DNA from: Acidobacteriota bacterium
Lineage (GTDB): Bacteria > Acidobacteriota > Terriglobia > Terriglobales > Acidobacteriaceae
Length of the DNA: 32,942 bases
Assembly: GCA_019351975.1 (NCBI GenBank)
Contig: JABBOG010000041.1
Span: 1 to 32,942 of the forward strand
Reading direction: 5' to 3'
Part shown: positions 2,204 to 32,194 of the stretch, piece after piece
Numbering within the stretch: the stretch's first letter is position 1
How the letters are laid out: each line of letters begins with the position of its first letter
The notes under the pieces: model-generated
The model's database searches: none
The model's input: only the letters and a program-made list of their open reading frames with translations
Told to the model about the DNA's origin: nothing
Program-made: the position numbers and the translations under genes

Positions 2204-4282
2204 ATGGTCAAGAGGTTTCAGGACATGTACATGGGTCGTCTACTCCGCGCAACCGTTCTGCCGATAGCGGTGGTTGCGGTTTGTGCTTCGGCGGGGGCGC
2301 AGAGCACGGCGGGAACGCAGCCTGCTGTGGACCACGCGGCGTCGTATTACCACTACGGGTTAGCCAAGATTTATGAAGACCAGGCGGTTGCGTCTGGGCG
2401 TCAAGATACGGCGACGCAGGCGATTGAGCAGTACAAGCTGGCGATGGATGCTGATCCGGATTCGCGGGTGTTGCAGGACGGGATTGCGAATCTGTACTTC
2501 CGGCTGGGGCGGATCGGAGATGCGGTTTCGGCGGCGCAAGACCAGATTGCGAAGCACCCGGATGACATTGACGCGCACTTATTGCTCGGGCGGGTGTATC
2601 TGCGGACGCTTGGAGACGGGCAGGGGCCTCAGGCGACGCAGGTTCTGCAGGCAGCGATCAAGGAGTACGAGACGATTGTGGCGTTGAAGCCGAGCAGCCT
2701 GGAGAACAGGCTGTTGTTGGGGCAGTTGTATGGGTTGGATCACGACTCGGCGAAGGCGGAGGAGCAGTTTAAGGCGGCGCAGAAGATCGATCCGAATAAT
2801 GAAGAGGTTGTGCTGAGTATCGCGCGGCAGTACTCGGAGCAGGGGAATCTGGATCGCGCGGCGAAGGTGATTGCGGACGTGCCGGAGAGCGACAGGACCG
2901 AGCGTATGGATTATGCGCTGGCGGGGCTGTATGACCAACTGAAGAAGCCGACCGATGCTGCTGCGGCGTACAAGGCGGCGCTGGCGGAGGACCCGGACAA
3001 TACGGATGCAAAGCGCGGATTGGCGGCGGCGCTGGCGGCGTCGGGCCAGATGGATGCGGCGGCGAAGATCAATGCGGATATTTTGAAGACAGACCCGCAG
3101 GACCCGCAGGCGCTGATACGAGAGGCAGAGATTCAGCGGCAGAAGGGCGACTTTGCGCAGGCACTGGTGACGCTGAAGAAGGCGGAGGGTCTGGTATCCG
3201 TTGGCGGAGACCCGGAGCTGAGCTATAACGAGGCCCTGGTGTATGACGGGCTGGGGCGGTTTGATGATGCGATCAAGACACTGAAACAACTGCTGGCGAC
3301 GAGGGCTTCAACAGACGGGAAGTACACCGGCGGCGAATTGAGCAACCGTGCGCTGTTTCTGGATCTTCTGGGAAGTGCGGCGCGCCAGGTAGGGAATACA
3401 GGCGAGGCGATTGCGGCGTTCGAGCAGATGGGCGCGCTGGGCGGGGATTATGTGGCGCGCGCAAGTGATGCTGAGGTAGATACGTATCGCGAGGCGCACC
3501 AGTGGACCAAGGCGCTGCAGGTTGCGGCAGATGCGGCGAAGGCGATGCCGAGCAATCATGATGTGCAGCTGACGTATGCGCGGCAGTTGGCCGACGCAGG
3601 CAAGGTGAACGAGGGCGTCAAGCTGGCAGAGGCGCAGTTGACGGGCGGGCCTGAGGACAGGGAAGTCTACTTCGACCTAGCTGATATGGACGTGCGTGCA
3701 AAGCGGTGGAAGGATGCGGCGGCGGCGTTCGACAAGGCCGATGCACTGGCGACAAAACCGGAGGACAAGATCTACGTCGACTACTTCCGTGGCGATGCGG
3801 CGATGCGGGAGAAGTTGTATGACGAGGCGGAGTTGGAGTTCCGCAAGGGCCTGGCGCTGGATCCTAATAACGCAGCGATTGAGAACGACCTTGGGTATAT
3901 GTATGCGGACCGCGGCATCAAGCTGGATGAAGCTGTTGCGATGCTGAAGAAGGCGGTGGCGTCGGATCCGCAGAACTATGCGTATCTGGACTCGCTGGCG
4001 TGGGCGTACTACAAACAGGGGCAGTATGCGATGGCAGAGGATTATGAGAACAAAGCTGCTGCGCGGATGTCGAATGACCCGACGGTGTTGGACCATCTTG
4101 GCGAGATAGAAGCACGGAACGGAAAGCTGCAGGCTGCGATTACGGAGTGGCAGAAATCGCTGCAGGAGTACTCGGATTCGCTGCCGCCGGAGGCAGATCC
4201 GGAGGATGTGGCGAAGGTGCAGCGGAAGCTGGAGAAGGCTCGTGTGCGGCTAGCGCACTCGGGAAGTGCTCCGTCGAAGTGA
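2204..4282 (+). CDS. Exported tetratricopeptide-repeat protein
   Basis: A 692-residue protein made almost wholly of TPR helices after a signal peptide. The N-terminus MVKRFQDMYMGRLLRATVLP continues into a hydrophobic core ending AGAQ, with likely cleavage near Ala32. ATGs at 2225 and 2231 are possible alternative starts that would give a shorter n-region. Repeats with the pattern A..Y..AL..DP.N (for example AAYKAALAEDPDN, AELEFRKGLALDPNN and AVAMLKKAVASDPQN) recur from about residue 45 to 660. No enzyme motif is visible. TPR proteins act as scaffolds, so this one is probably periplasmic or outer-membrane associated. It lies 67 bases after purH and 39 before dgt, so co-transcription is possible, though nothing links it to purine metabolism by sequence. 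Confidence 0.85.
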   Translation: MVKRFQDMYMGRLLRATVLPIAVVAVCASAGAQSTAGTQPAVDHAASYYHYGLAKIYEDQAVASGRQDTATQAIEQYKLAMDADPDSRVLQDGIANLYFRLGRIGDAVSAAQDQIAKHPDDIDAHLLLGRVYLRTLGDGQGPQATQVLQAAIKEYETIVALKPSSLENRLLLGQLYGLDHDSAKAEEQFKAAQKIDPNNEEVVLSIARQYSEQGNLDRAAKVIADVPESDRTERMDYALAGLYDQLKKPTDAAAAYKAALAEDPDNTDAKRGLAAALAASGQMDAAAKINADILKTDPQDPQALIREAEIQRQKGDFAQALVTLKKAEGLVSVGGDPELSYNEALVYDGLGRFDDAIKTLKQLLATRASTDGKYTGGELSNRALFLDLLGSAARQVGNTGEAIAAFEQMGALGGDYVARASDAEVDTYREAHQWTKALQVAADAAKAMPSNHDVQLTYARQLADAGKVNEGVKLAEAQLTGGPEDREVYFDLADMDVRAKRWKDAAAAFDKADALATKPEDKIYVDYFRGDAAMREKLYDEAELEFRKGLALDPNNAAIENDLGYMYADRGIKLDEAVAMLKKAVASDPQNYAYLDSLAWAYYKQGQYAMAEDYENKAAARMSNDPTVLDHLGEIEARNGKLQAAITEWQKSLQEYSDSLPPEADPEDVAKVQRKLEKARVRLAHSGSAPSK

Positions 4283-7482: not shown

Positions 7483-7995
7483 CTAAAACAATGCACCTGC
7501 CACCTGTCTCGCGATTTCTTCAACTTTTGCAGCGAGAACATCTCGGGTTGCTTGAGACCCATTTCCAGTACCGGTATTGATGTCGACTGTAAATATGTTG
7601 GCTCTTACCCGGCCAACCACGAGTTCGCTGCGAGCCAGTCCCTTATTGCTTGCGCACAGGACTGCCTCATTCCCGATCGCCCTCAGCGACGCTTTCGGGG
7701 AAGTGCAGCCGCTTTCATAGGGTTTCATATCCCCCCCTGGATCCTCTGCATGATCTGCTTTGGTGACTGCTATGCGCAAAGTATCGTCCGAGGCTCCGTT
7801 CAGAAGCCGAAATACACATGACCCTGTACCGGCACCAGTATTGTTTACCTCCACGGTCGCCGGGCCCGCAAGCACACCGGATGCGGTTGCGGCGTTCAGC
7901 CATGGGCAGGTACTCTGTGCGCCGCATGTGCCGGATAACAGTGAGAAGCCTGCGACGACGATAATCCAGATCCCGATTTTTACCTTTGTCTTCAT
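7483..7995 (-). CDS. Exported Cys-containing hypothetical protein
   Basis: A 170-residue protein that I cannot assign to a characterised family. It begins MKTKVKIGIWIIVVAGFSLL, a signal peptide likely cleaved near Gly25-Ala26. The mature part has four cysteines (30, 60, 97 and 114) that could form two disulfides. The layout CPWL..A...G then GSCVFRL is loosely like DUF3558-type secreted domains, but that is only a resemblance. It ends with an amphipathic helix (residues 150-168). The start ATG at 7995 lacks a strong ribosome site. It stands alone between the TetR gene and the broken cupin gene, and the 264 bases on its 3' side (7219-7482) show nothing recognisable. Confidence 0.6.
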   Translation of the reverse strand: MKTKVKIGIWIIVVAGFSLLSGTCGAQSTCPWLNAATASGVLAGPATVEVNNTGAGTGSCVFRLLNGASDDTLRIAVTKADHAEDPGGDMKPYESGCTSPKASLRAIGNEAVLCASNKGLARSELVVGRVRANIFTVDINTGTGNGSQATRDVLAAKVEEIARQVAGALF

Positions 7996-8555: not shown

Positions 8556-10046
8556 ATGCGTTGCTTCCTGTTGAGAATCTTCTACGCCACAATGCTTACC
8601 ACCGCCGCACCGGCCCTCCTGGCTCAGCAGCCGACCGCAGTGCCCGAGCGCGCGGCTCACCCGCAGCGGCCGTCAATCGAGCAGCAACTCACCTTCTCTC
8701 CTTTCCATATAAGCGGCATTTATACAATCGGCGATACCGTCGGGTGGACCGTGACTCCTGGTCCGGTCTCTCCTACCTACTCCTACAAGTACACCGTGCG
8801 GCGCAACAACGCCGTCGTTCTGAAGGAGGGAAAACTCGATCTCAGCAGGGGTAAGGACACCATAGAGGTCATCGGCGACCAACCCGAGATGATCTATGTC
8901 GCCGTCGAACCGTATGCTAGCCTGCCGTCTGCCTCATCCGGCGGCACGCCGGCAGCAGTCGACCCCAAAGGCTCGAACAGCTCTATGGTCAGCCCGCTGA
9001 ATGCCGCAGCTCGTTCCGTTACCGATGCGGCCGCCGGCGGGCCTCCATCGCGTTCTCCCTATATCGGAGGCAACACGGGTCGCAACAATGGTTTTTATGC
9101 TGTAGGCGCTGCTGTCGCGCCACAACAGATCGGCATGGACACACCGCGGCCCAGTGATTTCGACACATTTTGGAACAACAAGCTCGCCGAGCAGGCGAAA
9201 GTTCCGATCCATCCAATTCTGAATCCTATTGCGAGCGATATTCCGGGGGTTGACATTAAGATCTTCACTCTTGACGCCCTCGGTTCTCATGTTCACGGAT
9301 ACGTCGCGAAGCCTGCTAGGGACGGCAAGTACCCTGCCCTCATCCAGCTTCAGTATGCCGGCGTCTACGCCCTGAACGCCCGCGGAGACGAACAACGCGC
9401 CTCGTCCGGATGGCTGGTCCTCAACGTAGATTCGCATGACAAACAGCCCAACGATCCATCTGGTGGCATTCCGCAGGACTACCAGACGGTTGGCAACACC
9501 GATCGTGAGAAGTCCTATTTTCTCGACATGTACCTCCGCGACTCCCGCGTAATCGACTATCTCCTTACCCGGCCCGACTGGGACGGTAAGACGATCGTCG
9601 TCACAGGGGGCAGCATGGGTGGCCAGCAGAGCCTGGTCTTAGCAGGGCTGCGGCCGGAGAAGATTACGGATGTTTTGGTTTGCGTACCCGCCGGCGCGGA
9701 TACGAACGGTGATCTACACGGGCGTAAAGCGGGTTATCCGAACTGGCCCTCCAGCAACCCTGACATCATGCATACTGCTCTGTACTTCGATCCTGTCAAC
9801 TTCGCATCGCGGATTACAGCGCCGGTAATGGCGGGCATGGGCTTTATCGATACCACCGCTCCGCCTGCGGGTATCTGGACTGTGTTGAACCAAATTCGCG
9901 GCCCCAAGGAGCCGTTGCCGATGATTTGGTCCGATCATGACAACATGACGCCGCGCGAGGGTCATGCGTGCCCAGCCCGCGTCAGTGCCGTCCTCGACCA
10001 AATCGTTCAAGGGGATACCTACACACCCGTTCCTATGGAGCCATAG
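8556..10046 (+). CDS. Exported acetyl-xylan esterase (CE7/AXE1-like alpha/beta hydrolase)
   Basis: It removes acetyl groups from xylan or short acetylated sugars. Residues 1-23 are a signal peptide ending LLAQQ. Residues about 45-120 look like a beta-sandwich (SGIYTIGDTVGWTV, KYTVRRNN), followed by a Ser/Gly/Ala-rich linker to about 190. The AXE1 hydrolase domain then runs to the end, starting RPSDFDTFWNNKLAEQAK. The nucleophile is S353 in GGSMGGQQS and the acid is D432 in GFIDTTAPP. The His is H461 (SDHDN) or H470 (EGHAC); I cannot decide which. Characterised CE7 enzymes are about 320 residues and mostly intracellular, so 496 residues with an export signal is a longer exported form. It is flanked by the broken cupin gene and, convergently, by the TPR operon. 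Confidence 0.85.
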   Translation: MRCFLLRIFYATMLTTAAPALLAQQPTAVPERAAHPQRPSIEQQLTFSPFHISGIYTIGDTVGWTVTPGPVSPTYSYKYTVRRNNAVVLKEGKLDLSRGKDTIEVIGDQPEMIYVAVEPYASLPSASSGGTPAAVDPKGSNSSMVSPLNAAARSVTDAAAGGPPSRSPYIGGNTGRNNGFYAVGAAVAPQQIGMDTPRPSDFDTFWNNKLAEQAKVPIHPILNPIASDIPGVDIKIFTLDALGSHVHGYVAKPARDGKYPALIQLQYAGVYALNARGDEQRASSGWLVLNVDSHDKQPNDPSGGIPQDYQTVGNTDREKSYFLDMYLRDSRVIDYLLTRPDWDGKTIVVTGGSMGGQQSLVLAGLRPEKITDVLVCVPAGADTNGDLHGRKAGYPNWPSSNPDIMHTALYFDPVNFASRITAPVMAGMGFIDTTAPPAGIWTVLNQIRGPKEPLPMIWSDHDNMTPREGHACPARVSAVLDQIVQGDTYTPVPMEP

Positions 10047-10151: not shown

Positions 10152-12254
10152 TCACTTTTTGATTTTCTCTGCGACGCCCTTCCGGTGATAGGCTTCCGTA
10201 AGTTCTAGACGGATCGCACTATCCTCTGGTGCCAATCTGGCCGCGGCCTCCAGGCTGCCAATCGCGTCATCTGTATCCCCGTGGTCGAGTTGAAGCTTGC
10301 CGAGCTGATAATAAACTGCCGGTTTGCTGGTTCCAGACTGCGCCAGTTCTTTTAGCAGTGACTGCGCTTGATCCTTTTGACCGAGGGCCATCAAGGTAAG
10401 TGCAAGATCATATTTCGCATTCTTATTCGAGGGATCGATAGTTAGCGCCGTATGCAACTGTGCTTCTGCTTTCTGATACTGCTTCTGACCTGCGAAGGCT
10501 TCTCCGAGAGCAGCGGGAACCAACGCAAGACCAGGGTCTGCCGCCTCGAGGCGCTCGAGGCGATCGATTCCCTGATCCACGTCGCCGGTCTTTATCAGCG
10601 ACTCGGCGTAAGCATAAGCCAGCAGTGGAACCGTATTCAACTGAGCGCCCAATGGGGAAAGTGTATGGACGGCGTCACTGTAATCCGACAGCATGAACTG
10701 ACTCATTCCGAGAGGCACGCGCGGACGAGCGTCGTCTGGATGGGCCTGCATGTACCTGTCGAGGCAGATCAAAGCCTGATGGTACTCTTGCGCGCCGAAG
10801 GCGGCTCTCCCCCAGTTGTAGTCCAAACCCTCCATCCCCGGATTCCATTCAGCAGCCTGTTTAAAGTAGGTGGATGCTGACGCATAATCCTCACTCTCTG
10901 CGCTGATGACTCCAAGATTATTGAAGCTGTCTGCAATGGCGGGTCCAACCTGTTGTTCAAATTGCTTCACTTTTGTAACAGCAGCGGGATCGGTTATTGT
11001 GTCGGATTTACGGGGAGGGAATTTGATGATTGTTTTGCCGGCAAGGTTAGCGGTATCAAGCTTTCTGTTCTGGAGCAGCATGTCCTGGGCGAGGCGCATC
11101 TCTTTTTTGCCCTCGTCTGCCTTTCCTTCCTGAATGAGTAATAGGCCCAGTTCGTAGTGAGCGCCGCGAATCTGGTAGTGGTTCCGCGAAGGGTCAGTGC
11201 ATAACTGAATCGCCTTTCGCAGCGCGACCTCTTCGTCCGTGGATTTGCCCATTTGGCTATACAGGTCGCCCAGCAGTAGAAACGTATCGTCACTGTATGG
11301 GTTCAATGCAGCAGCACGATTAAGGTCGCGGGCTGCTTCAGTCAGTCGATGTGTATTCATCGCGAGATAACCGAGTTCATAGTAACTAAAAAAATCGTTT
11401 GGATGAATCGAGAGCTCCTTGCGGAACTCCGCCTCGGCTGCGGGAAAGGCAGCGTCTCCCGACCTTTTCAAATAGGAGGCGCCGAGGGAGTAATGTGCAT
11501 CAAGGTATCTGTTATCTCTCGCGAGCGTCTTCTTGAACTCTGGGATAGCTTCTTCGGGAAAATCCGCATCCGCATAGGCTAGGCCGAATTGCATGTGGAT
11601 CTGCGCTGTGTCTCCGAATTCAGCCTGTATCTTTCCAAAGATTTTCGACGCGTCTTCCTTATCCGGGATTGCGAGATATGCCTGCGCCAATGCGTACTCA
11701 TTTTCAAACGTGGGACTGATCGCTGCGGCTTCTGCAAACTGCTCTCTAGCTCCCTTGTTGTCATCCATGCCAAGAAGCGCCTGTCCAAGGAGTCGATGCA
11801 GGGTTGCCGTATGGGTGTCTCTGGCGTTCTTTGGAGAAGCGTTTATCAATTCCTGTGCCAGATGTTGGGCCTTGAGCAGATCGTGCGCGTCCAGTGCTGC
11901 TTTGGCATAGTCCATGCTCAGTGCTGTGTGGTTCGGGGTGAGCGTGAGCGCTTCGTCAAAAAGTGGTACTGCTTCTGGATACTCTCCGACGTTGGCCCGA
12001 CCATTTGCAACGCGATGCAGCGCTGCGGCGAGAAACAGCTTGTACTCAAACGCAGCTTGCGCCAAATCGCCTTTGCCCTGCAATGTCTCCGCGGCATCGT
12101 AGTGCTCCTGTAGTGGCGACTCTGCTGAGCTTGTCTTCGAGACACTTTGACCAGATACAACGACAGCCGACATAAATATCACGACAGCTATGCCGATGCC
12201 ATGTGATATCCATCTTGCGAACGATCGATTGATCCACATATAGTTATCGCTCAC
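10152..12254 (-). CDS. Exported TPR protein, third gene of the CRTAC1/cytochrome operon
   Basis: A 700-residue protein. It has an N-terminal hydrophobic segment (ISHGIGIAVVIFMSAVVVSG, residues 17-36) that acts as signal peptide or anchor. TPR units then run to the C-terminus, for example VPLFDEALTLTPNHTAL, AEAQLHTALTIDPSNKNA and AIGSLEAAARLAPEDSA. No catalytic motif is seen. Its ATG (12254-12252) overlaps the TGA of the cytochrome gene (12253-12251) as ATGA, so translation is probably coupled and the two products made in step. With 15 or more TPR-like repeats it is a likely periplasmic scaffold for its operon partners. An ATG at codon 6 is an alternative start. Confidence 0.85.
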   Translation of the reverse strand: MSDNYMWINRSFARWISHGIGIAVVIFMSAVVVSGQSVSKTSSAESPLQEHYDAAETLQGKGDLAQAAFEYKLFLAAALHRVANGRANVGEYPEAVPLFDEALTLTPNHTALSMDYAKAALDAHDLLKAQHLAQELINASPKNARDTHTATLHRLLGQALLGMDDNKGAREQFAEAAAISPTFENEYALAQAYLAIPDKEDASKIFGKIQAEFGDTAQIHMQFGLAYADADFPEEAIPEFKKTLARDNRYLDAHYSLGASYLKRSGDAAFPAAEAEFRKELSIHPNDFFSYYELGYLAMNTHRLTEAARDLNRAAALNPYSDDTFLLLGDLYSQMGKSTDEEVALRKAIQLCTDPSRNHYQIRGAHYELGLLLIQEGKADEGKKEMRLAQDMLLQNRKLDTANLAGKTIIKFPPRKSDTITDPAAVTKVKQFEQQVGPAIADSFNNLGVISAESEDYASASTYFKQAAEWNPGMEGLDYNWGRAAFGAQEYHQALICLDRYMQAHPDDARPRVPLGMSQFMLSDYSDAVHTLSPLGAQLNTVPLLAYAYAESLIKTGDVDQGIDRLERLEAADPGLALVPAALGEAFAGQKQYQKAEAQLHTALTIDPSNKNAKYDLALTLMALGQKDQAQSLLKELAQSGTSKPAVYYQLGKLQLDHGDTDDAIGSLEAAARLAPEDSAIRLELTEAYHRKGVAEKIKK

Positions 12255-14590
12255 TTTGGGGTTGCCGGGCTTTCATCATTCGGCAAATCTGTATGGAGAT
12301 GCCACGGGACGCTCTCGTGCGAGTCGTCAGGGTGGCTGCTCAAAAAACGAAGCGAGCTGGTGAGCGCTTCCGGATCGGCCTTTTCAGTGAGCAGGAGTGC
12401 CTGCTCTTGCTCAGCCTGCTTTTTCATGTGCATTCGTCGATAGAGAATAGACAAATTGTAGTGTGCCGCTACATCGTCTGGATCGATCGTTTCGAGCGCC
12501 TGGAACTGCTGCATAGAATGCTCGTCATCGTCCCGCTGGAAATAGGTGACACCCAACTCGCGCCGAGCGTCGCGCGACTGAGGATACTGCTGCACCACTT
12601 CTTCGAGATCAGCCAGCTCTGCGTCGGACTCTCCCGCTCTCCGCTCCAACAGCGCCCGATAATAGAGAGCGCGGGCGTTGTTTGGACTTAACGACAGCGC
12701 CTTTTCTACAGCGTTCCGCGCTGACCTATACTTCTCCCACTCGGTCTCGGCTAATGCAATATTCGTGTAGCCGTCTGCGTAATCGGGCCTCAGGTGTACC
12801 ACTTCAGAAAATGCGTGTACTGCTGCGCCGTATTGAAGCTGATCGAGATAGCTGATTCCTAGGTTGTTCCAACGCATCCAATCCGGATTGTCTCCAGGCG
12901 AAGGCTGAACTGGAGAATTCTTACCGATTCGCAGCGTTCGGCTGCGCGCCGCTATCTCCACCACGGGATAGGCGGGATGATGCTTGCCAAGCACGTTATT
13001 GGTATAGCTTTCCCGAAGATGGCGGTAGTTTACCTTCGCTGTAATGGTAATGGAGTCTTTGATATCTGCAGGAACGCGGAAACGGTATCGAACCAACGTC
13101 GACCGCCCCGACTGGACGGTATTATCGTAGGCGACCGAGTGGATGGTCTGCACCTGGTGGTTATCGACAAACGCGCCGTCCTTATCCACTGGCCGATTGG
13201 TGAAGCTGTGTGCGCGCGGATCGAGTTCGCCGTCCGGCCGTAGAAAGCCACTGTGGTAGATGTCCTTGCCATGTTCGTCTTTGACTGTGAATTCTACCCA
13301 TGCTTCATATAGGTCGCGGACCTCCGGGATCAGTGAGTGACCTATGTTCTTATTCTGGATTACGACGTACGCGTCGAGGATATCGTTCGGTTGGATATGA
13401 AAAGGCACCGATCCAAGTGGACCAATCAACTGCTCTTCACTGGCCTTCTTTATCCCGAAGATATCGACATTCAGATAATCTCCTGCCTGCAGAAACTTTA
13501 TTGTTTTCTCTAGTTGTTCGTCGAAGCCGTAATAAAAGGGGACAGCTGTATTTCCTGCCGGCCAGCTATGCGATGCGAACGTTCCATTCTTTGCGCCATA
13601 GTCCGGCATCGTGAGCGAGGCGCGCTTCATGTGGCAGTTCTGACAGGTCTTGAAGTCTCCGGGATAAAAAGTTAACGGATTCCGATGCGAGAACTTCGAG
13701 TTCTGCCACTCGTCAAACGTGACAAATGCGCTCAGGAATTTGTAGTCATTCAGATGTTGCGGCAAATTCGCCTTGTGGCATGCGGCGCAGAACTCAGGGG
13801 TCCGGTAGAAGCTTTGCATCACGGCCCTGGAATGACGGTCCGGATGCTTGATGATCTCGTCGTACGGAACTTCTCCAGGGATGCGTTTGCCGTTCTCATC
13901 CACCATCACCGACGGAACTCCTATAATGTAGCCGCCGTTGCCGCTGGTAGACTTCAGGCCCTGGATGGAGTGACAGACCATGCAGGTCACGCCGTTGTCG
14001 TCGAATTTTCTGTCTACCTGCGAATTTTCAGTGAGAGCACCGCTGAGCACGCCGATCGGGTTATGGCAGCTATCGCAGTGCCGTGAGAACTCAATGCCTT
14101 TGGTATTGTTGAGGAGGTTGACGCTGGTGCGGTAAAACGGCTCACGAAACGAGTTCGAATGCAGCGCCTGACGCCACTGGTGGTATGCCTCCTGGTGGCA
14201 ATGCGCGCAATATGTAGCGTTTGGAAAAGCTCCAGGCTGGATGAAGCCGCCGCCCTGCACCTCCGGGTTACCTGGCGCGAAGGGAAGGTCCTTGCCAAAG
14301 CGGAAGTTGTAGCCAGACGCGATCTTCTCCGAGTATTGTTTTCGAGCCGCGTCCTGGTCCTTGCCTGGCGTAACTTCCTGACCCGGTGCGATAGAGACGA
14401 ACAGCATAGCGACTGGCATCACACCGGCGAGAGCGGCAAAGCGCCAGTTTAATCGCTTCAATCTAGACACAACAAAACAAGCGTTCCACCACGGCTCGAA
14501 GCGAACAGCCGTTAGCAGTCTTTGGGCAACATGAGAAGGCCAACTTCTCATAAAGCGCTCGCTCTCTGGAGATAGTCGACGAGCATTCAT
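12251..14590 (-). CDS. Membrane-anchored pentaheme cytochrome c with C-terminal TPR domain
   Basis: A 779-residue electron-transfer protein. Five CXXCH heme-c sites are visible: CAHCH 128-132, CDSCH 172-176, CMVCH 203-207, CAACH 268-272 and CQNCH 316-320. Their spacing fits the cytochrome c554-like multiheme fold. A hydrophobic segment at about 51-68 is a signal anchor preceded by an unusually long, basic n-region. Residues about 400-570 are beta-rich with no clear family, and TPR repeats cover about 585-735. The ATG at 14590 is chosen because it overlaps the TGA of the upstream CRTAC1 gene as ATGA. The frame is open 43 codons further, but that stretch is upstream-gene shadow. It is probably periplasmic. 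Electron donor and acceptor are unknown. Confidence 0.88.
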   Translation of the reverse strand: MNARRLSPESERFMRSWPSHVAQRLLTAVRFEPWWNACFVVSRLKRLNWRFAALAGVMPVAMLFVSIAPGQEVTPGKDQDAARKQYSEKIASGYNFRFGKDLPFAPGNPEVQGGGFIQPGAFPNATYCAHCHQEAYHQWRQALHSNSFREPFYRTSVNLLNNTKGIEFSRHCDSCHNPIGVLSGALTENSQVDRKFDDNGVTCMVCHSIQGLKSTSGNGGYIIGVPSVMVDENGKRIPGEVPYDEIIKHPDRHSRAVMQSFYRTPEFCAACHKANLPQHLNDYKFLSAFVTFDEWQNSKFSHRNPLTFYPGDFKTCQNCHMKRASLTMPDYGAKNGTFASHSWPAGNTAVPFYYGFDEQLEKTIKFLQAGDYLNVDIFGIKKASEEQLIGPLGSVPFHIQPNDILDAYVVIQNKNIGHSLIPEVRDLYEAWVEFTVKDEHGKDIYHSGFLRPDGELDPRAHSFTNRPVDKDGAFVDNHQVQTIHSVAYDNTVQSGRSTLVRYRFRVPADIKDSITITAKVNYRHLRESYTNNVLGKHHPAYPVVEIAARSRTLRIGKNSPVQPSPGDNPDWMRWNNLGISYLDQLQYGAAVHAFSEVVHLRPDYADGYTNIALAETEWEKYRSARNAVEKALSLSPNNARALYYRALLERRAGESDAELADLEEVVQQYPQSRDARRELGVTYFQRDDDEHSMQQFQALETIDPDDVAAHYNLSILYRRMHMKKQAEQEQALLLTEKADPEALTSSLRFLSSHPDDSHESVPWHLHTDLPNDESPATPK

Positions 14591-16494
14591 TTTCCCGAAG
14601 ACGCTTCTTTTGCGATGCCATCGTAGACGCTGGCGACGATACCTTTGCCTTCTTCGACAACAAAGTAGCGGTCGATACCGGGCAGCTTGACGTGTTCCAC
14701 CTTCCCGCTGCCGGCCCAATGAATCTCGACAGAGTCCACCGAAGTAGACTGTCCGAGACCAAAGTGAAGACGCTGGTCGTTGGAGGACTCATAACTTCCG
14801 GCGCTCATCACATCTCCCCGTTGTCGAGTCGCGCCGGACGTCAGATATACCGTGGACCCAACTGCATCGCGGGGGCTTCCCGAGCCACCAACAAGCCGAA
14901 TTCCTACCCAATGGTTGTGGTCGGGATTGACATTGCGCAGCAAAACGGGAGTGTGATCCATGCAGTTGATGACGACATCGATTTTGCCGTCATTGAATAG
15001 ATCGCCAAAAGCCGCCCCCCGCGCAGGAATAACCTCTGCGAGTCCCGTGCCATCAACCGCCGGCATCGCCATAAATTTTTGACCATGATCGACATTATGG
15101 AAAAGCAGTGGGCGCTCGGCATAGCTGGTTCCCCAGTCATGGTGCGCGACCTCCGGATATACGTGTCCGTTGGCGACAAAGATATCCTTCCATCCATCGT
15201 TGTCGTAATCGATGAACTCCGTGCCCCAGCCCAGAAATGGATAAGTGATCTCATCGATCCCGGTCCGCGAAGTCACTTCGGAAAAATTGCCGTCGCCTTT
15301 GTTATCAAACAATGTGTTGTAGTCATCTGAGAAGGTAGTGGTGTAGATCCCCACCTGTCCGCTGTTCTTGTAATCTCCAACAGCCAATCCCATAGACGCC
15401 GTCTCACGTCCAGACCGATTCAGCGCAAAGCCGGAGTAGTAGCTGGCATCTTCGAAAGTCCCATCTCCCTTATTGATATACAGGTAATTGGAGGAAGAGT
15501 CGTTTGCGACCAGCAAATCCACCTTGCCATCGTTATTTATATCGACGAAGGTAGAGCTGAAGCCGTAATAATGATTTGGATCACTGACACCGGCCTTTAC
15601 GCTCACATCGGTAAAGGTTCCGTCGCCATTGTTGTGGAACAAATGGTCAGGTTCGCCTTCGAGTCCCCGCGGACCGCAACTGACGTTCACTCCCCGATAT
15701 TGGCAAAATCCGAGACTGTCTGAACCCGCACGAGGTGGATGCGCCATGTCGTAGTGAACATACCCCGGCACAAACAGATCCAGACGCCCATCTCCGTCAA
15801 AATCCCCAAAACTCGCGCCGGTCGACCAATTGCCTAGAGTTACGCCTGCTTTTTCGGCAGTGTCGGTGAATGTGCCATCGTGGTTATTGCGGTAAAGACG
15901 GTTCTTACCGAAATTCGTCACGTATAAGTCGGGCCATCCGTCATTGTCATAGTCTCCTACTGCGCAGCCATATCCCCACCGACCGTTTGTCACCCCTGCA
16001 GATGTAGCGACGTTCGTAAACGTGCCGTCATGATTGTTGTGAAAGAGTGCAGCGTGTGGTGGCTCGGTCTTCCCGTCCTGCGCGTCGTAGGTTGATCCAT
16101 TTACCATGTAGATGTCTAACCAGCCATCATGGTCGTAATCAAGCAGGCAGACGCCGGAACCCGTCTCTTCGATAATATATTTCTTCTCCGGCGTTCCCAT
16201 GACATGGTGCCAGCTTGTCAGCCCCGCCTTCGCCGAAATATCCTTGAAGATGATGGGGCCAGTCTTGACGAACCCGCCGGCTGTGATCGGCCGATGCTCT
16301 GAATCGAGTACAGGTGCGAATTCGCCCGCAGTCGATGACCCTCCCTGCTGCTTTGGAGCCGGAGCGTCTGAACTCTGGGGTGTGGTTTGAATTGCCTGCT
16401 CGCTCACCTGAGCTGACGCGGATGAAAAAAGAAGGAGTGTCGCAACGGTAAATGCCCATATGTACAACTGTTTTCGGCCAATTCTGCTACGCAT
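14587..16494 (-). CDS. CRTAC1-like FG-GAP/VCBS beta-propeller protein with ASPIC/UnbV domain
   Basis: A 635-residue exported protein and the first gene of the three-gene operon. A signal peptide covers residues 1-28 (LLLFSSASAQ). A propeller of FG-GAP/VCBS repeats follows, each with a calcium-binding DxDxDG loop: DYDHDG 119-124, DYDNDG 181-186, DFDGDG 231-236, and later DINNDG and DYDNDG. The repeats alternate with the HNNHDGTFT(N/D)V type. The C-terminal ASPIC/UnbV domain starts about residue 530 (NHWVGIRLVGG, DAVGSTV, SSNDQRLHFGLG, VDSVEIHWAGSG). Such proteins are presumed to bind calcium and partner proteins or glycans outside the cytoplasm; the biochemical role in bacteria is not settled. 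Its TGA overlaps the cytochrome ATG. Confidence 0.9.
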   Translation of the reverse strand: MRSRIGRKQLYIWAFTVATLLLFSSASAQVSEQAIQTTPQSSDAPAPKQQGGSSTAGEFAPVLDSEHRPITAGGFVKTGPIIFKDISAKAGLTSWHHVMGTPEKKYIIEETGSGVCLLDYDHDGWLDIYMVNGSTYDAQDGKTEPPHAALFHNNHDGTFTNVATSAGVTNGRWGYGCAVGDYDNDGWPDLYVTNFGKNRLYRNNHDGTFTDTAEKAGVTLGNWSTGASFGDFDGDGRLDLFVPGYVHYDMAHPPRAGSDSLGFCQYRGVNVSCGPRGLEGEPDHLFHNNGDGTFTDVSVKAGVSDPNHYYGFSSTFVDINNDGKVDLLVANDSSSNYLYINKGDGTFEDASYYSGFALNRSGRETASMGLAVGDYKNSGQVGIYTTTFSDDYNTLFDNKGDGNFSEVTSRTGIDEITYPFLGWGTEFIDYDNDGWKDIFVANGHVYPEVAHHDWGTSYAERPLLFHNVDHGQKFMAMPAVDGTGLAEVIPARGAAFGDLFNDGKIDVVINCMDHTPVLLRNVNPDHNHWVGIRLVGGSGSPRDAVGSTVYLTSGATRQRGDVMSAGSYESSNDQRLHFGLGQSTSVDSVEIHWAGSGKVEHVKLPGIDRYFVVEEGKGIVASVYDGIAKEASSGK

Positions 16495-17051: not shown

Positions 17052-19295
17052 TTAAGGATGAGTGTTTGTGTTTGTTTCATCAAATCGAAAGGCGGCTGCC
17101 TGAAAGTCACCGCGTAGATCAATATCCAATCCATGATTCATCCAGTAGCTACCACTTGCTACTTCGGGTGAATCGCTCGCCACCGAACCTGAGATTGAGC
17201 TGATGCGGTAGTCCTTTCCGGGATCAAGACCGCGCAGGTAGACGCGTGGAAAGGGATAACCCATCTGGCTGGAGTGTAGAAATGCGAAGAGCACCCCTTG
17301 TTGTCGGTTCAGCGAGACGGATTCTGTGACGGAGACTTCGCTTCCATCGCGCGGCGAAACTAACCGGTACAACGATCCATGCTGAACCGTCTCTCGAACA
17401 CGCTTATATGCCTCGACCATTGCTTTTGCAGTTGCGAAGTCCGTAGAGGTCCATTGATTCAGATTTGCGCCTACGCCTAGCGACCCTTGCATTGAAGACA
17501 GGAATCTATATGTAAGTGATGTTGTTCGGTGATTGACCCAGTTCGGTGAATCTGTGACCCAAGCCATCATGACGCCGGGCGAATATGCATATGTAAAGCC
17601 ATCCTGGATGCGCAGTCGGTCAAACGGATCGGTGTTGTCGGAAGGCCAGACCTCATCTGTGAGTCCAAGGATTCCAAGGTCTACGCGCCCTCCACCACCA
17701 GAGCAAGACTCGATTTCTACGTTCGGATATTTCGTGTGTAATTCCTGCAGGATGCTGTAGAGGTTGCGAACGTATTTTACGTACACCGCCTTTTGTTCAT
17801 CTGGTGCAACTGCTGGCCAGCCCGGTTCCGACCAGTTACGGTTGTAATCCCACTTGAGAAATGCAATCTGATTGTGGCTGAGAAGATTGTCCAAAAATCC
17901 GTAAACATACTCGCGCACATCTGTTCGCGCGAGGTTGAGGACTAATTGATTTCGTTGTTCTGTTCGTGGCCGTCCGGTGAAGTTCAGAACCCAGTCTGGG
18001 TGTTTCCGGTAGAGGTCGCTGTTCGGATTCACCATTTCAGGCTCAACCCATAATCCAAAATCCATGCCGAGGGCGTGAACCTTGTCGATCAGAGGTTTGA
18101 GCCCATGCGGAAACTTCTGCTGATTGACGTACCAGTCACCTAGTCCTGCGTGGTCGTCTTTTCTCTGGCCAAACCAACCATCATCCATGATGAAACGCTC
18201 GACACCAATCGATGCAGCTTTCTCCGCCAAAGCTTCTTGTCCCGGCTCATCAACGTTGAACCCAGTAGCTTCCCACGAGTTGTAGATGACTGGCCGAGGT
18301 CTGGGGTTTGGTGCGTTCGGAACAATCTTTGTCAACTCAAACCGATGCAGTAAACGCGATGCGCCGCCGATGCCATCCTTTGAAAATCCGCCGTAGAAGA
18401 CAGGTGTTTCGAGATGTTGACCAGGCAGAAGCTTGTATCCAAAGTCGAACGGATTGAACCCGCCAGTGACACGAATCTGCTGTAGTTGGTCTTGCTCGAC
18501 TGTGATGCGCCATGATCCGCTCCAAGCTAAAGCGCCAAACCAAACTTCACCGGTGTCCTCGTCTGCGTGTTCGCCGCGCTCTATCGCGAACCATGGATTG
18601 TTCTGATGTCCTGTCGATCCCCGCTTGCTTTGCAACACGGTTTCGCCGGGGCGGATGGTCTGTTTCTGCAGCCCCCACTCACCTGCCCATCTGCCAGTTA
18701 GATACCGCAGCGAGTAGTCATCTCCTCGCGGGAGACTCCAGGACGCTGCGGCAGCTTGTTCAATTATCACCGGTGCCTGCGTTCCATTTGTGATGACGGC
18801 GGATCGACCGATGATTCCAGTATGTGGATCGACGCTATAGTGCAGCTCCACATAAAAACTCCGTTCGATATCCTTCGTTGTAATCACCAAATCGTTTTGG
18901 TGGATCTGGTGTGAGACATAATGCAAGACCAGATCCCGATTGCCGTCAGGGAAGGTGACTTTCAGGGCCGGTTCAACATAAAGTCCACCACCCCAGCCAG
19001 CATATTCGTTGGGAGTTGTTGTTACAGATGCATCGAATGCAGCGGCCTCAGGTTTTTCATGAGTCGCTGGGAAATGATCGTTGGTTGCTAGCTGTGGTCC
19101 CCAATAAACAGGTTGAAGCTCATCAACATTATTGATACCGAACGCATACGTAGTTCCTGCAGCGTCGATGCGGAATATTCTCATCGCTGCGTTGTAACTA
19201 ATATCGTTATTGCTCTGAGCTCTTGACAGGGATGGCTGGAGCGCTGCGCCCGCTAAGGCTATTGCGCCGATCAAGCCGATATAGAGACGGGTCAT
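17052..19295 (-). CDS. Exported GH36 alpha-galactosidase
   Basis: It releases alpha-linked galactose from oligosaccharides such as raffinose, or from galactomannan side chains. The 747-residue length fits the tetrameric GH36 bacterial group. Residues 1-26 are a signal peptide ending LSRAQ. An N-terminal beta-supersandwich runs to about 330. The catalytic barrel follows, with YNSWEATGF, RFIMDDGWFGQRKDD and GLWVEPEMVNP. The nucleophile is D483 in FLKWDYNR and the acid/base is D553 in WPSDNTDP. The start ATG at 19295 has a strong AAGGAG (complement 19301-19306) five bases upstream. Most GH36 enzymes are intracellular, so the export signal is notable. A LacI regulator lies 69 bases upstream in the same direction, which suggests sugar-responsive control. 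Confidence 0.93.
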   Translation of the reverse strand: MTRLYIGLIGAIALAGAALQPSLSRAQSNNDISYNAAMRIFRIDAAGTTYAFGINNVDELQPVYWGPQLATNDHFPATHEKPEAAAFDASVTTTPNEYAGWGGGLYVEPALKVTFPDGNRDLVLHYVSHQIHQNDLVITTKDIERSFYVELHYSVDPHTGIIGRSAVITNGTQAPVIIEQAAAASWSLPRGDDYSLRYLTGRWAGEWGLQKQTIRPGETVLQSKRGSTGHQNNPWFAIERGEHADEDTGEVWFGALAWSGSWRITVEQDQLQQIRVTGGFNPFDFGYKLLPGQHLETPVFYGGFSKDGIGGASRLLHRFELTKIVPNAPNPRPRPVIYNSWEATGFNVDEPGQEALAEKAASIGVERFIMDDGWFGQRKDDHAGLGDWYVNQQKFPHGLKPLIDKVHALGMDFGLWVEPEMVNPNSDLYRKHPDWVLNFTGRPRTEQRNQLVLNLARTDVREYVYGFLDNLLSHNQIAFLKWDYNRNWSEPGWPAVAPDEQKAVYVKYVRNLYSILQELHTKYPNVEIESCSGGGGRVDLGILGLTDEVWPSDNTDPFDRLRIQDGFTYAYSPGVMMAWVTDSPNWVNHRTTSLTYRFLSSMQGSLGVGANLNQWTSTDFATAKAMVEAYKRVRETVQHGSLYRLVSPRDGSEVSVTESVSLNRQQGVLFAFLHSSQMGYPFPRVYLRGLDPGKDYRISSISGSVASDSPEVASGSYWMNHGLDIDLRGDFQAAAFRFDETNTNTHP

Positions 19296-19364: not shown

Positions 19365-20375
19365 CTAAAGGAGTGCGGGCCCAGTCGATTTGCGTGTCAC
19401 GAACTCTGGAAGAATCGTCTGCTCGGTGCCCGGAACGGGTTGCGAACCTTTTGATTGCAAGGCGTGCAAGAGGGATTGGAAAGCTGCATTGGCAATCTGG
19501 ACGCGCGGCAGACTGACTGTGGTCAAGGGAGGCATCGTATAGGCACTGAGTTGGATGTCGTCATAGCCGACGACAGATATATCGTGAGGCACACTTAATC
19601 CAGCTTCGCCGATCGCACCCATTGCGCCGATTGCGGTAAGGTCGTTGGATGCCAGGACAGCAGTGGGACGGGCCCCGGAACTTAGTATGCGATTCATGGC
19701 AGCATGCCCGCCGTCGACGCGATGATTGCCTTCCTCGATGAGTTGTACATTCGCATCGAGACGAACCCTCGATGCGCTATCCATAAATGCCTTATACCGC
19801 ATGCGTGCTGAAGCCAGCCGCATAGGGCCGCTGATGAAAGCGATGCGATTGTGACCAAGCTGGATGAGATGATTTACAGCCATATCAATGCCAGCTGAAT
19901 AATCGATGCGAACGCAGCCAACGCCGGGGGATGGTACGCCCGTATCTAGAAAGACGAGAGGGATATGTCTGCGGCTGAAATCCTCGATGAGATGGTCGTC
20001 CATTTCGGAAGTCATGATGGCAACGCCATCTACCTTGCGTTGCAACATTCGCCGCACGCAAATCTTCATACGTTCAGAATCATAATTCGTGTTCGCGATC
20101 AGGACTTCCTGGCCATGAAGGACGGCGATATCCTCGAAGGATTTCACTAACTCAGGGAAGAATGGATTTGTAATATCCGAAATGATCAATCCGTAGAGGC
20201 CGCTGCGGCCGGAACCTAACGCTCGCGCATTCGTATCAGGATAAAAGTTGAGCTCTTCGATGGCCTTTCGTACGCGCTCTGCGGTCTCGGGATTTACCTT
20301 CGCTGATCCATTTATGGTGCGCGAAACGGTAGCAGTGGAAACCTTAGCGCGCTTGGCGACAGCTTTGATGTTCAT
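19365..20375 (-). CDS. LacI-family transcriptional regulator
   Basis: A 336-residue sugar-responsive DNA-binding protein. The N-terminal helix-turn-helix and hinge are textbook: IKAVAKRAKVSTATVSRTIN (residues 3-22), then ETAERVRKAIEELNFYPDTNARAL. The periplasmic-binding-protein-like core starts GLIISDITNPFFPELV and ends with the domain motif GYDDIQLSAYTMPPLTTV. It is co-directional with the GH36 alpha-galactosidase 69 bases downstream, so that gene is the likely target and galactosides the likely effector; this is inferred from position only. The start ATG at 20375 gives the standard length. An inverted repeat (CTATC-GGA-GATAG, 20421-20433) lies 46 bases upstream and could be its own operator. 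Confidence 0.92.
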   Translation of the reverse strand: MNIKAVAKRAKVSTATVSRTINGSAKVNPETAERVRKAIEELNFYPDTNARALGSGRSGLYGLIISDITNPFFPELVKSFEDIAVLHGQEVLIANTNYDSERMKICVRRMLQRKVDGVAIMTSEMDDHLIEDFSRRHIPLVFLDTGVPSPGVGCVRIDYSAGIDMAVNHLIQLGHNRIAFISGPMRLASARMRYKAFMDSASRVRLDANVQLIEEGNHRVDGGHAAMNRILSSGARPTAVLASNDLTAIGAMGAIGEAGLSVPHDISVVGYDDIQLSAYTMPPLTTVSLPRVQIANAAFQSLLHALQSKGSQPVPGTEQTILPEFVTRKSTGPALL

Positions 20376-20770: not shown

Positions 20771-23461
20771 TCAGGGTTTCTGATGTGGCAACCACTCAGC
20801 AATGTTTTGGACGATGAGCGGCACGTTTGATTGGCGAAACATCGTGTCGTGCTCACCGGGTATAACTATCGTGCGAATCCCTCCGCCTGCAAACAACCTC
20901 CACGCGTGTCTCGATGATTCGAGCAGAGGATCCTGAGCGTCGGTAGCCATGATGTGAAGTATGGGAGAGCTGATCGTTGTGGGTGAGATGAAGGAAAAGT
21001 ATCCGGCTCTTGACTGCTCGGACAGCCAGCGCATCGGTTGCTTCTTCCATGACGTGCCGCGTCGTTGCATGCTTCGAAAGGCGAGCCATAGAACCCTGCG
21101 CATCAGGCGCCGCACTATACTCAGGATAGGACGCATCTTGCCAGCACGCAGGGATGACGTAACCGTCTTTGCAATTGCTTTCAAGATGGCAGGTCCATCC
21201 TGAATGAGGCGCGGGAAACCCGGCGTCGGCACATCAAATAGCAGCAGCAAGCAAGATCTGCCTCGCTGTTCCAGCGCGCGTGCCGTTTCGAAGGCTACGA
21301 CGCCGCCGTAGCAGAATCCGCCAATCACGCACAAACATTGATGCGATCGCTCAATCACTAAAGCTGCGGCCTGCTTGCCTGCAACTTGGATGGAATCAGC
21401 GGAATGTTCATGCCAGAGGCTACCAGGTCGCAGTAAATCCAAGCTCCATGCAGGCTTGAGTTGTCGTCCCAATTCGCGAAAACTGAAACCCTCAGCACCA
21501 TCGGAGGGGATCATATATAAAGCAATATTCGGACCGTTATGGGTCACGACGGGTATCAATTCCATCTTGCTGGACGCAGGCTTGCTCGCACAACCGGCCA
21601 TGGCTTCGGTCGCCAATTTGTAGAGGGTTGTCAAAGTTGGATTACGAAAAAATTGGCTATCTGAGAGCTTGGACGGTAGAGAAAATATGGATTCGACTTC
21701 AGCCAGCATCGTGGCTGCATTGATAGAGTCGCCGCCAATCTCGAAGAAGTCGTCATGGATGCCAATCTGTTCCGTTCGCAAGCATCTTCTCCAAATGCTC
21801 AACAAACACTCCATGAGATCTGTAGGTATGCCTGGTTTTACTACGACAGGAGGTCCATCCTTCAGCGACCGCTGGGGTATTACTGCTTCGGCGGGTGCAG
21901 GTTCGAGCGAGGAGTGCGAGAAGTCGACAGAGTTTGAGAAACGTTCACGAAGTACAAGGCGTTGTGGTTTGCCTGTCGCGCCGCGCGGTATAGCGTTGAG
22001 TCGGTAGATCCTGCGGGGAAGTTTATAAGTGCTCAATTTCATTGCGGCGAATTCTCGCAGTTCCTCATCGTCCACGCGAGATCCTTCACGAACCACAATT
22101 GCGCAGGCTACATCTTCACCCAGAGAGGGATGTGCGACCGCAAACGTAGCGACCTCGCGAATTGCCTCATGAGCTATGAGTACGGCGTCCACTTCATCGG
22201 GAATGAGTTTTTGTCCGCCGCGATTGATCATCTCTTTGATTCTTCCAGTAATCCAGAGAAAGCCGGCATCATCGATTCGGCCTAGATCGCCTGTCAAGAA
22301 CCAGCCATCCCGATATGCATCGCGGTTTGCATCTTGGTCGTTGACGTACCCAGGCATAACGTTCGGACCGCGGACCACGATCTGTCCTTCTTGGCTCGTT
22401 CCAAGGAGTGTGCCATCGCTATGCATGACCGCGATCTCTGGTCCCGTGCTCGGTCCTACGGGTCGCGATGTTGAGGTGCCGGTTACCCTGGGAGAGCCAA
22501 GAGGTGTCGATGCGATACCACCAACCTCGGTGAGCCCATAGACGTCTAATACGGGAACGCCCAGCGAATCTTCAAGCGCGTCTGCAAGTTCAGCGGGCAA
22601 GATAGCGCCACCCGACCGTACGAAGCGCAGGGAAGTTGGCTTGGGTATCGGGTAGGAATTCAGATTGGATACGATAGCCCGGTGTAGCGTAGGACCACCG
22701 GTATACCAGGTGGGACGATACGTAAGCAGGCATTGCTGGAATGATTGCGGGGTGTACTCAAGACCGGTGATGACGCAGCCGCCCGCTCGCAGTTGCGCCC
22801 ATGCTCCTATGATGCCTTGAATGTGAAACAGCTTTGCCATTAGTAGCAGACGATCATCAGAGGTCAGATGTAGAGCATGTGATGTGTTTCTAAACATTGC
22901 GTCCAAGTTGCCGTTTGTAAGTGGAACAATTTTCCTACGACCTGTTGTGGCTGAAGTGTGCAGGAGCAATGTGGTACAAGCAGGTAACTGGATCGGAGAG
23001 CGCTTAGATTCGACCATCTTTGTTTTTACGCGCCAGGAACACCTGTCTTCGGTGACCGTAGATACGATCACTAACAGACCCAGCTTTTCTCCCATAGCGC
23101 TGAAAGCCTCGTTTTCGTGCTCGATCACGATCGCTACTGCTCCAAGCTCGAGGAGGTCTCTCTCTAACTCAGGTGCAGAAACGGCGGGGTTGATGGGCGC
23201 GCAGGCACAGATACGCGAGATACCCAGAGTACTGATGAGACCGCAAAGCGCATCTGGAAGGACAACCGCAACCGTCTCATGCGATTGAATCCCTTCCGAC
23301 TTTAATAATTGTCGAAGCGCCTCGCACATCGTCCATAGCTGAATGTAGGAAAACGCATGACCGCCGGGTTCGAGAAGTGCAGTGCGACGCGGTGCTTCAA
23401 CGGCAAACTTGGCAATTTCTACAAATAACAGATCGTGTTCCATATTTTGGTGAGACACCAT
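20771..23461 (-). CDS. Stand-alone A-PCP-TE (NRPS-like) protein with cysteine thioesterase
   Basis: An 896-residue three-domain assembly enzyme that should adenylate a carboxylic acid, load it on its carrier and release it. The adenylation domain (about 10-505) has A3 variant TSATTGRRK (169-177), GLTE 309-312, TGD 390-392 and Lys498 in GATGKPQR. At the A4 position it has LFHIQGI, as in acyl-CoA ligases, not the FDxS with the amino-binding Asp of NRPS, so a substrate without an alpha-amino group is likely. The carrier has Ser579 in FEIGGDSI. The thioesterase has GFCYGG with Cys717 at the nucleophile position, then D743 (LFDVP) and H871 (GEHDTM). The start is unsure: GGAG abuts the ATG at 23461, and ATG 23443 is an alternative. 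No PPTase, MbtH or export gene is nearby. Confidence 0.85.
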   Translation of the reverse strand: MVSHQNMEHDLLFVEIAKFAVEAPRRTALLEPGGHAFSYIQLWTMCEALRQLLKSEGIQSHETVAVVLPDALCGLISTLGISRICACAPINPAVSAPELERDLLELGAVAIVIEHENEAFSAMGEKLGLLVIVSTVTEDRCSWRVKTKMVESKRSPIQLPACTTLLLHTSATTGRRKIVPLTNGNLDAMFRNTSHALHLTSDDRLLLMAKLFHIQGIIGAWAQLRAGGCVITGLEYTPQSFQQCLLTYRPTWYTGGPTLHRAIVSNLNSYPIPKPTSLRFVRSGGAILPAELADALEDSLGVPVLDVYGLTEVGGIASTPLGSPRVTGTSTSRPVGPSTGPEIAVMHSDGTLLGTSQEGQIVVRGPNVMPGYVNDQDANRDAYRDGWFLTGDLGRIDDAGFLWITGRIKEMINRGGQKLIPDEVDAVLIAHEAIREVATFAVAHPSLGEDVACAIVVREGSRVDDEELREFAAMKLSTYKLPRRIYRLNAIPRGATGKPQRLVLRERFSNSVDFSHSSLEPAPAEAVIPQRSLKDGPPVVVKPGIPTDLMECLLSIWRRCLRTEQIGIHDDFFEIGGDSINAATMLAEVESIFSLPSKLSDSQFFRNPTLTTLYKLATEAMAGCASKPASSKMELIPVVTHNGPNIALYMIPSDGAEGFSFRELGRQLKPAWSLDLLRPGSLWHEHSADSIQVAGKQAAALVIERSHQCLCVIGGFCYGGVVAFETARALEQRGRSCLLLLFDVPTPGFPRLIQDGPAILKAIAKTVTSSLRAGKMRPILSIVRRLMRRVLWLAFRSMQRRGTSWKKQPMRWLSEQSRAGYFSFISPTTISSPILHIMATDAQDPLLESSRHAWRLFAGGGIRTIVIPGEHDTMFRQSNVPLIVQNIAEWLPHQKP

Positions 23462-25167: not shown

Positions 25168-25379
25168 CGGACGAGTACACCTCACAAATGAAGAGATCAC
25201 CCTTGAAGGAGGGAATATTGATTGCGGTAGAGAAACTCAGCTTCATCGTGAAGCATGTTTTGCGAGCGATCTACGGATTCGCTTTCAACGTAGTCGACAG
25301 GCGTGTTCGATGGATCATGCAAGCTACGGAGCTTTAGGTAAACGCAGCATATTTATCTACGCAGCACCAGGTGAGGCTT

Positions 25380-32110: not shown

Positions 32111-32114
32111 CGTT

Positions 32115-32119
32115 CCTCC
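32115..32119 (-). promoter_or_regulatory. Ribosome binding site deciding the GH51 start
   Basis: GGAGG on the minus strand, four bases before the ATG at 32110, favours that ATG over the longer open frame beginning at 32194. Confidence 0.65.
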
Positions 32120-32194
32120 ATGTCTTTCGTGAACGTATCCATAAAGCATTCCCGCTACCAAGATTGCCGGAATGTGCAACGTTTGCGTACTCAT

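Follow-up and report, generated by a model that had tools for sequence, protein, structure and literature searches.

Pentaheme c-type cytochromes whose heme domain is combined with an immunoglobulin (Ig)-like domain form the PHC family, which includes ExtKL, Gsu2801 and proteins of cable bacteria (PMC11976967, accessible part). The same text describes the small PHC proteins as structurally similar to cytochrome c552 of Thermochromatium tepidum, a protein without a clearly assigned role, and cites a relation of the latter to the archaeal nanowire cytochrome AvECN. Another relevant setting is that of the hydrazine-synthase-like gene clusters, in which an FG-GAP protein gene of the CRTAC1 family lies beside genes for multiheme c-type proteins, some of them with cytochrome c554 domains (PMC12758564, accessible part). 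Here we analyze a 32,942-nucleotide (nt) contig of an Acidobacteriota bacterium of the family Acidobacteriaceae (JABBOG010000041.1; hereafter, the window), part of a 3.9 Mb draft genome, in which three consecutive open reading frames (ORFs) on the minus strand, running from position 16494 to 10152, encode a CRTAC1-family protein, a pentaheme cytochrome and a protein with tetratricopeptide repeats (TPR). In many related genomes the cytochrome and CRTAC1 genes are direct neighbors, an indication of an as yet undescribed unit that would handle electrons outside the cytoplasm. We lean slightly towards the view that the locus encodes an exported electron-transfer module in which the PHC-type cytochrome acts as a relay or oxidoreductase and the CRTAC1 protein is a frequent partner, some copies of the module being involved in plant-polysaccharide use.

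The window cytochrome contains five CXXCH motifs, scores 33.0 bits against Cytochrome_C554 (cut-off 20.8) and ends in a TPR domain. It was modelled with AlphaFold2 at full length from a 53-sequence alignment (mean pLDDT 88.4; the model holds no heme); because the 50 VIA-align rows for this model were TPR or similar helical-repeat chains, the heme and Ig-like part was also modelled and searched alone (51 sequences, mean pLDDT 90.5). For both models, the top Foldseek match was the penta-heme cytochrome c552 of T. tepidum (5ze8; E 7.6e-12 for the full protein and 2.5e-18, with TMt 0.66, for the part). VIA-align placed the heme and Ig-like part on 5ze8 with Z 25.1 and an rmsd of 3.6 over 341/385 residues (model residues 43-478), the next row, at Z 9.6, being restricted to the Ig-like part. 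Profile searches led to the same structure (E 7.9e-10), followed by cytochrome c554 (6.3e-5) and the multiheme cytochrome selenoprotein MccSep (3.7e-4). Matches in the Foldseek viral library were partial and mostly with repeat or other helical proteins; none of the 50 listed was named a cytochrome. According to the models, the cytochrome has the known pentaheme plus Ig-like fold of T. tepidum c552 and the PHC-type proteins, and the added TPR domain makes it a variant of that fold.

The comparison with the described systems brings out both likeness and difference. T. tepidum c552 has the same succession of a five-heme and an Ig-like domain, at only 17-20% identity to the window cytochrome, whereas the TPR domain and the adjoining CRTAC1 gene belong to the window. 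The PHC proteins share the pentaheme and Ig-like combination, but some of them carry truncated hemoglobin domains and extKL is clustered with a porin gene, unlike the window locus (PMC11976967, accessible part); the NCBIfam ExtKL model (NF040886) scored 22.5 bits against the window cytochrome, below its cut-off of 250, and in PMC13188914 ExtKL is named once, in a table. The matches to MccSep (9wt8) and cytochrome c554 (1bvb) are local and lie near the first heme motifs, with best stretches of 33 and 87 of the 489 profile positions, respectively. Unlike MccSep, the window cytochrome has no selenocysteine because its gene contains no in-frame TGA. Finally, the hydrazine-synthase-like clusters resemble the window in that a CRTAC1-family gene accompanies multiheme c-type genes, but their heme proteins are homologues of HZS alpha and of HZS beta-gamma, the latter with a propeller, in place of a pentaheme-Ig-TPR protein (PMC12758564, accessible part). 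Membership of the window cytochrome in that group, for which a heme protein with its own beta-propeller and a C-terminal diheme domain would be expected, was considered and rejected: its C-terminus is a TPR domain without CXXCH, and its beta part matches Ig-like folds.

The heme motifs are strongly conserved. In an alignment of 61 rows (L043 is the window protein itself; the pairs L046/L047 and L053/L054 are nearly the same), every row has strict CXXCH at motifs II-V, and 55 rows have it at motif I. Four histidines outside the motifs, His144, His253, His341 and His418, are invariant in all 61 rows, and a C-terminal H-x-H is found in 43, preceded by Trp in 27. Because five hemes are set against four such histidines, one heme may be open. 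In the profile alignment, motif II coincides with the second heme motif of cytochrome c554. Heme II of cytochrome c554 is five-coordinate, and in cytochrome c554 and NrfA-type enzymes an open heme is the active site. The cytochrome could accordingly be read as a catalytic reductase or oxidase in its own right, with heme II, lacking a distal histidine, as the active site for a small substrate and the CRTAC1 protein as a structural partner only; the nearly invariant Lys273, Tyr283 and Tyr309 would fit such a site. Nevertheless, His171 (kept in 33/33 of the rows L041-L073 and 34/61 overall) or His461 (53/61) might supply the sixth ligand of the remaining heme, and the open heme is a lead rather than proof. 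On balance, we regard a catalytic cytochrome of this kind as unlikely.

The CRTAC1 protein of the window matches both FG-GAP_3 (161.8 bits in 5 stretches) and UnbV_ASPIC (61.1 bits; cut-off 23.4) above the cut-offs, and its sequence contains five loops of the DxDxDGxxD type that resemble calcium-binding loops. In the PDB, only cartilage acidic protein 1 (9etn, E 1.5e-10) matches its sequence at E <= 0.01. Genes of this family are numerous in the genomes surveyed, and no bacterial role is assigned to them in the open-licence papers that we found; a recurrent pentaheme partner, together with adjoining carrier genes in relatives, offers a concrete redox hypothesis for CRTAC1 that is testable in cultured strains.

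Within the window's family, 110 of 300 genomes have a match to the heme domain at E 1e-100; in the phylum, 146 of 297 do so at E 1e-3, many of these matches being remote. From 120 regions read, 118 loci were kept (the near-duplicates L047 and L054 were dropped; near-identical loci, such as L048 and L084/L089, were retained) and classified by the score of their cytochrome to that of the window: class A, 640 bits and above (identity of about 57% or higher); class B, 350-640 bits (about 41-53%); class C, lower scores, with 28-35% identity over the matched part. Gene starts are those of the longest ORF, which leads to an undercount of tight overlaps and makes some of the large negative gaps artefactual. 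A CRTAC1 gene lies on the same strand within 500 nt of the cytochrome gene in 90 of the 118 loci, that is, in 61/69 of class A, 9/22 of class B and 20/27 of class C. Seven of the remaining 28 loci are at contig ends (4/8 class A misses and 3/7 in class C).

Such neighbors could be ordinary ones without a joint function, abundant CRTAC1, TPR and cytochrome genes having come together by chance or under shared regulation; the 11 UnbV_ASPIC genes in the window's genome, the variable third gene (see below) and the loci that lack a nearby CRTAC1 gene would all agree with this. However, in 20 genomes with 139 ASPIC hits, a same-strand ASPIC domain is present within 3.5 kb in 19 of 31 cytochrome loci (both G094 and G163 included), against 0.17 expected under uniform placement. 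Since the 19 adjacent loci correspond to 13.7% of the ASPIC hits, abundance does not explain the adjacency, which moreover persists among the distant class C loci. Together with the conservation of the heme motifs, this exceeds what chance would give; the adjacency statistics speak against pure chance, and we consider mere coincidence of neighbors very improbable.

The association also survives rearrangement. Within class A, the CRTAC1 gene is upstream of the cytochrome in 38/69 loci and downstream in 23/69, and the two arrangements differ in how closely the CRTAC1 protein resembles that of the window (931-1485 bits upstream, with one truncated at 560, vs 445-480 bits downstream, with one truncated at 182). 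A quick tree of 91 rows from classes A and B, with 25 open forks and two long branches, requires at least 12 changes of state (CRTAC1 upstream, downstream or absent), and CRTAC1 is present in 70 of 87 scored rows. This recurrence across sequence distance and rearrangement, along with the small electron carriers of the relatives, fits a redox module with the cytochrome and CRTAC1 as its core.

A survey of named relatives (the best 80 of 575; several genomes overlap those above, and the counts are kept separate) includes Edaphobacter, Granulicella, Acidicapsa, Terriglobus and Terracidiphilus, with a same-strand CRTAC1 gene within 500 nt in 49 of these loci. The pair is found, for example, in Edaphobacter lichenicola and Granulicella paludicola; Terriglobus albidus has the pentaheme gene with a monoheme cytochrome. 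Cytochrome and CRTAC1 genes overlap by 4 nt in L245, labelled Gemmatimonadota, and in L247 (Longimicrobiales). Two loci of Poribacteria encode four strict motifs without CRTAC1, one of their contigs being cut 688 nt downstream, and in L236, L237 and L242 the ORF found contains fewer than five heme motifs. The window's genome itself has a class B copy (G000:C85, L042) with CRTAC1, pentaheme and monoheme cytochrome c genes, followed by two CRTAC1 genes and a TPR gene on the other strand.

The third gene, by contrast, varies. The window's third protein consists of TPR along most of its length; a similar gene (at least 250 bits) follows on the same strand in only 5 of the 69 class A loci: the window, L111 (the closest relative of the window, with a cytochrome 87% identical over the matched part), L117, L123 and L138. 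Any same-strand TPR gene within 2.6 kb was detected in 28 of the 69 loci, and L129 has one on the opposite strand. TPR genes of the window type also occur away from the cytochrome, with a match in 36 of 120 family genomes at E 1e-30, and a CRTAC1 gene adjoins them in 3 of the 9 loci read besides the window. Three ORFs in 200 loci are TPR-CRTAC1 fusions, two of them from the same Pyrinomonas locus; fusion proteins of 1198 and 1160 amino acids (aa) are encoded near the cytochrome gene in L098 and L068. In single-sequence phmmer searches, a gene for a small secreted protein containing cysteines (SML) was found no more than 700 nt downstream of the cytochrome in 31 of the 69 class A loci, and at up to 2.6 kb in another 20; the two SML proteins tested had no match in Pfam. 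We therefore rejected a strictly conserved triplet (a first-pass annotation of this DNA had inferred fixed stoichiometry of the three proteins from the overlaps): TPR genes change, the gene order flips, and the exact triplet of the window is a local version of a more variable module. Because the third partner changes, the argument for fixed stoichiometry drawn from the overlaps is weak, and overlapping start and stop codons alone do not show fixed stoichiometry or a complex. What endures from the earlier proposal of a joint redox role is the association of CRTAC1 with the cytochrome, backed by the adjacency, the c552 fold and the carriers of relatives.

These carriers are of two kinds, counted, like SML, from single-sequence phmmer queries. 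Of the 22 class B loci, 13 have a monoheme cytochrome c gene downstream, at a distance of -44 to 13 nt apart from L056, whose ORF start is misplaced; the two proteins tested were Cytochrome_CBB3. COX2-like cupredoxins are encoded in six class A loci, 331-504 nt downstream in 5/69 and 2.5 kb upstream in one more; the one tested contains Cupredoxin_1 and COX2 domains, and five of the six keep C-x3-C-x3-H-x2-M, which we take to be part of a CuA site. Some cytochrome copies adjoin genes for plant-polysaccharide degradation: in L065, the order is arabinofuranosidase, cytochrome (after 4 nt), monoheme cytochrome (-4), GH43 (-1) and LacI (51), and in L058, GH35-like, cytochrome, monoheme cytochrome and GH43. 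Elsewhere the neighboring genes encode ROK kinases, amylases or GH77, or are unrelated (pantoate enzyme, phosphoesterase, CN-hydrolase). In L053 (9859-13474), a histidine kinase of the Reg_prop/Y_Y_Y type (999 aa) and a response regulator of the LuxR type are encoded after CRTAC1 and the pentaheme and monoheme cytochromes, an arrangement suggesting dedicated regulation; proteins related to this kinase and regulator cluster in 7 loci.

In the exported module that we prefer, the heme-loaded chain of the c552-fold cytochrome would connect a substrate side with a small soluble carrier and pass electrons between the two; in relatives, this carrier would be a monoheme cytochrome c of the cbb3 type or a cupredoxin of the CuA type. 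The CRTAC1 protein, a propeller with calcium-type loops, would probably bind a substrate, polymer or surface, while the TPR, both in the cytochrome and in separate proteins, might hold the parts together in a complex. Among Acidobacteriaceae, some copies may serve the use of arabinan or xylan. If this is correct, the module would be a second setting, beside the hydrazine-synthase-like clusters, in which a CRTAC1 protein accompanies multiheme cytochromes. A far more specific version, which we hold to be distinctly unlikely, is an undescribed, modular periplasmic oxidoreductase of Acidobacteriota and Gemmatimonadota, in which an open-heme pentaheme-Ig-TPR cytochrome would work with a CRTAC1 propeller that captures a sugar or phenolic derived from plant polymers; the substrate would be oxidized outside the cytoplasm and its electrons passed on towards a terminal oxidase by either of two exchangeable carriers, CuA cupredoxin and monoheme cytochrome c.

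Several observations weigh against the exported module. CRTAC1 is not obligatory: 12 of the 22 class B loci have none within 500 nt on either strand, and no fusion of CRTAC1 with the cytochrome was found among the ORFs of 200 loci. At heme I, CX4CH stands in place of CXXCH in six remote rows of class C. Neither a monoheme cytochrome gene nor a cupredoxin gene is present at the window locus. The enrichment of GH43 near cytochrome copies, within 7 kb in 4 of 31 loci vs 0.23 expected (p 8.5e-5), comes from a post hoc test against a uniform null; the four hits include two orthologues, p being 1.4e-3 if these are taken as one, and the enrichment is suggestive only. As for the linked oxidase or dehydrogenase that the first-pass annotation had envisaged, the scan of 18 window proteins revealed no catalytic redox enzyme, and there was no such catalytic subunit among the 20 same-strand neighbors of relatives and 9 of either strand that were scanned (one neighbor list comprises 73); the sole flavoprotein seen is a pyridine nucleotide-disulphide oxidoreductase (Pyr_redox_2), which five loci from a single clade encode on the opposite strand, a count that has no control set.

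The kinship of the fold with ExtKL and, through T. tepidum c552, with AvECN (PMC11976967, accessible part) also raises the question of an extracellular conduit or filament delivering electrons to minerals or humics. Outer-membrane beta-barrel genes recur near 11 of 60 loci, 6 of the 14 copies on the same strand, and candidate mtrA/mtrB homologues are reported from several acidobacterial genomes, including Granulicella and Terracidiphilus (PMC5900883, accessible part). Nevertheless, the barrels are of the TonB-receptor kind (all four tested have OMP_b-brl_4 and CarboxypepD_reg, one of them also a Plug domain) and their general abundance is uncontrolled; among the 18 window proteins scanned there is no porin or other barrel, unlinked porins not having been searched for. 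Furthermore, the accessible part of PMC5900883 reports no complete mtr/omc operon and infers that these strains lack iron reduction of the Shewanella or Geobacter type, and a filament would have to accommodate the TPR domain. A conduit thus appears quite improbable. The porin-multiheme system described for Verrucomicrobia (PMC5615132, accessible part) is not a CRTAC1-cytochrome module. Among the open-licence papers listed, none links CRTAC1 with pentaheme cytochromes, and for the phrase 'CRTAC1 family protein' our search of that literature returned only the anammox paper PMC12758564; apart from this one, the listed papers that combine CRTAC1 with cytochrome deal with animals or medicine, and none of those listed for acidobacterial names has the word 'pentaheme'; the accessible part of a paper on Solibacter paralogues does not link ASPIC/UnbV with cytochrome c, and an omics paper on Granulicella WH15 does not mention the terms of the module.

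The features of the window are listed below. The domain matches and ORFs bear out the three genes as first annotated; of the two overlaps annotated as ATGA, that between CRTAC1 and the cytochrome is so, and the other reads GTGA. The longest cytochrome ORF starts at TTG 14719, and it is the ATG start given in the table that yields the 4-nt overlap. Export of the three proteins is inferred from the hydrophobic N-terminal stretch that each of them has; in the cytochrome, this stretch may be a membrane anchor or may be cleaved off. GH36 is separated from CRTAC1 by 557 nt, and co-transcription is therefore not implied.

Features of the 32,942-nt window around the CRTAC1-cytochrome locus
Feature	Position	Strand	Remarks
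SML, small cysteine-containing protein	7486-7995	-	homologue of a gene often directly 3' of the cytochrome in relatives
Esterase	8556-10046	+	separates SML from the cytochrome module
TPR protein	10152-12254	-	700 aa (695 aa from ATG 12239); hydrophobic N-terminus
Cytochrome/TPR stop/start overlap, GTGA	12251-12254	-	TPR could instead start at the in-frame ATG 12239
Pentaheme c-type cytochrome	12251-14590	-	779 aa from ATG 14590; N-terminal hydrophobic segment, five-heme, Ig-like and C-terminal TPR domains
Five CXXCH motifs	13631-14209	-	cytochrome residues 128-132, 172-176, 203-207, 268-272, 316-320
CRTAC1/cytochrome stop/start overlap, ATGA	14587-14590	-	
CRTAC1-family protein	14587-16494	-	635 aa; FG-GAP propeller and C-terminal UnbV_ASPIC; hydrophobic N-terminus
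GH36	17052-19295	-	context, outside module
LacI regulator	19365-20375	-	context, outside module
AMP-binding/PP-binding/thioesterase protein	20771-23461	-	context, outside module
Feruloyl-esterase-like	24010-25200	-	context, outside module
Carboxylesterase	25380-27068	-	context, outside module
GH9	27197-29863	-	context, outside module
Arabinofuranosidase-like, weak match	29945-32194	-	context, outside module

Among the neighbors in other genomes, those of L052 and L060 (434 and 435 aa, without a Pfam match) were set aside as tyrosine recombinase-like by eye, and a 494 aa neighbor as spurious-looking. Elsewhere in the window, a second large TPR protein (692 aa, 2204-4282, plus strand) is encoded between a purH-like gene and a gene for an HD-domain protein, positionally unrelated to the three genes, and the protein that unites AMP-binding, PP-binding and thioesterase domains resembles a one-module enzyme of the nonribosomal peptide synthetase type.

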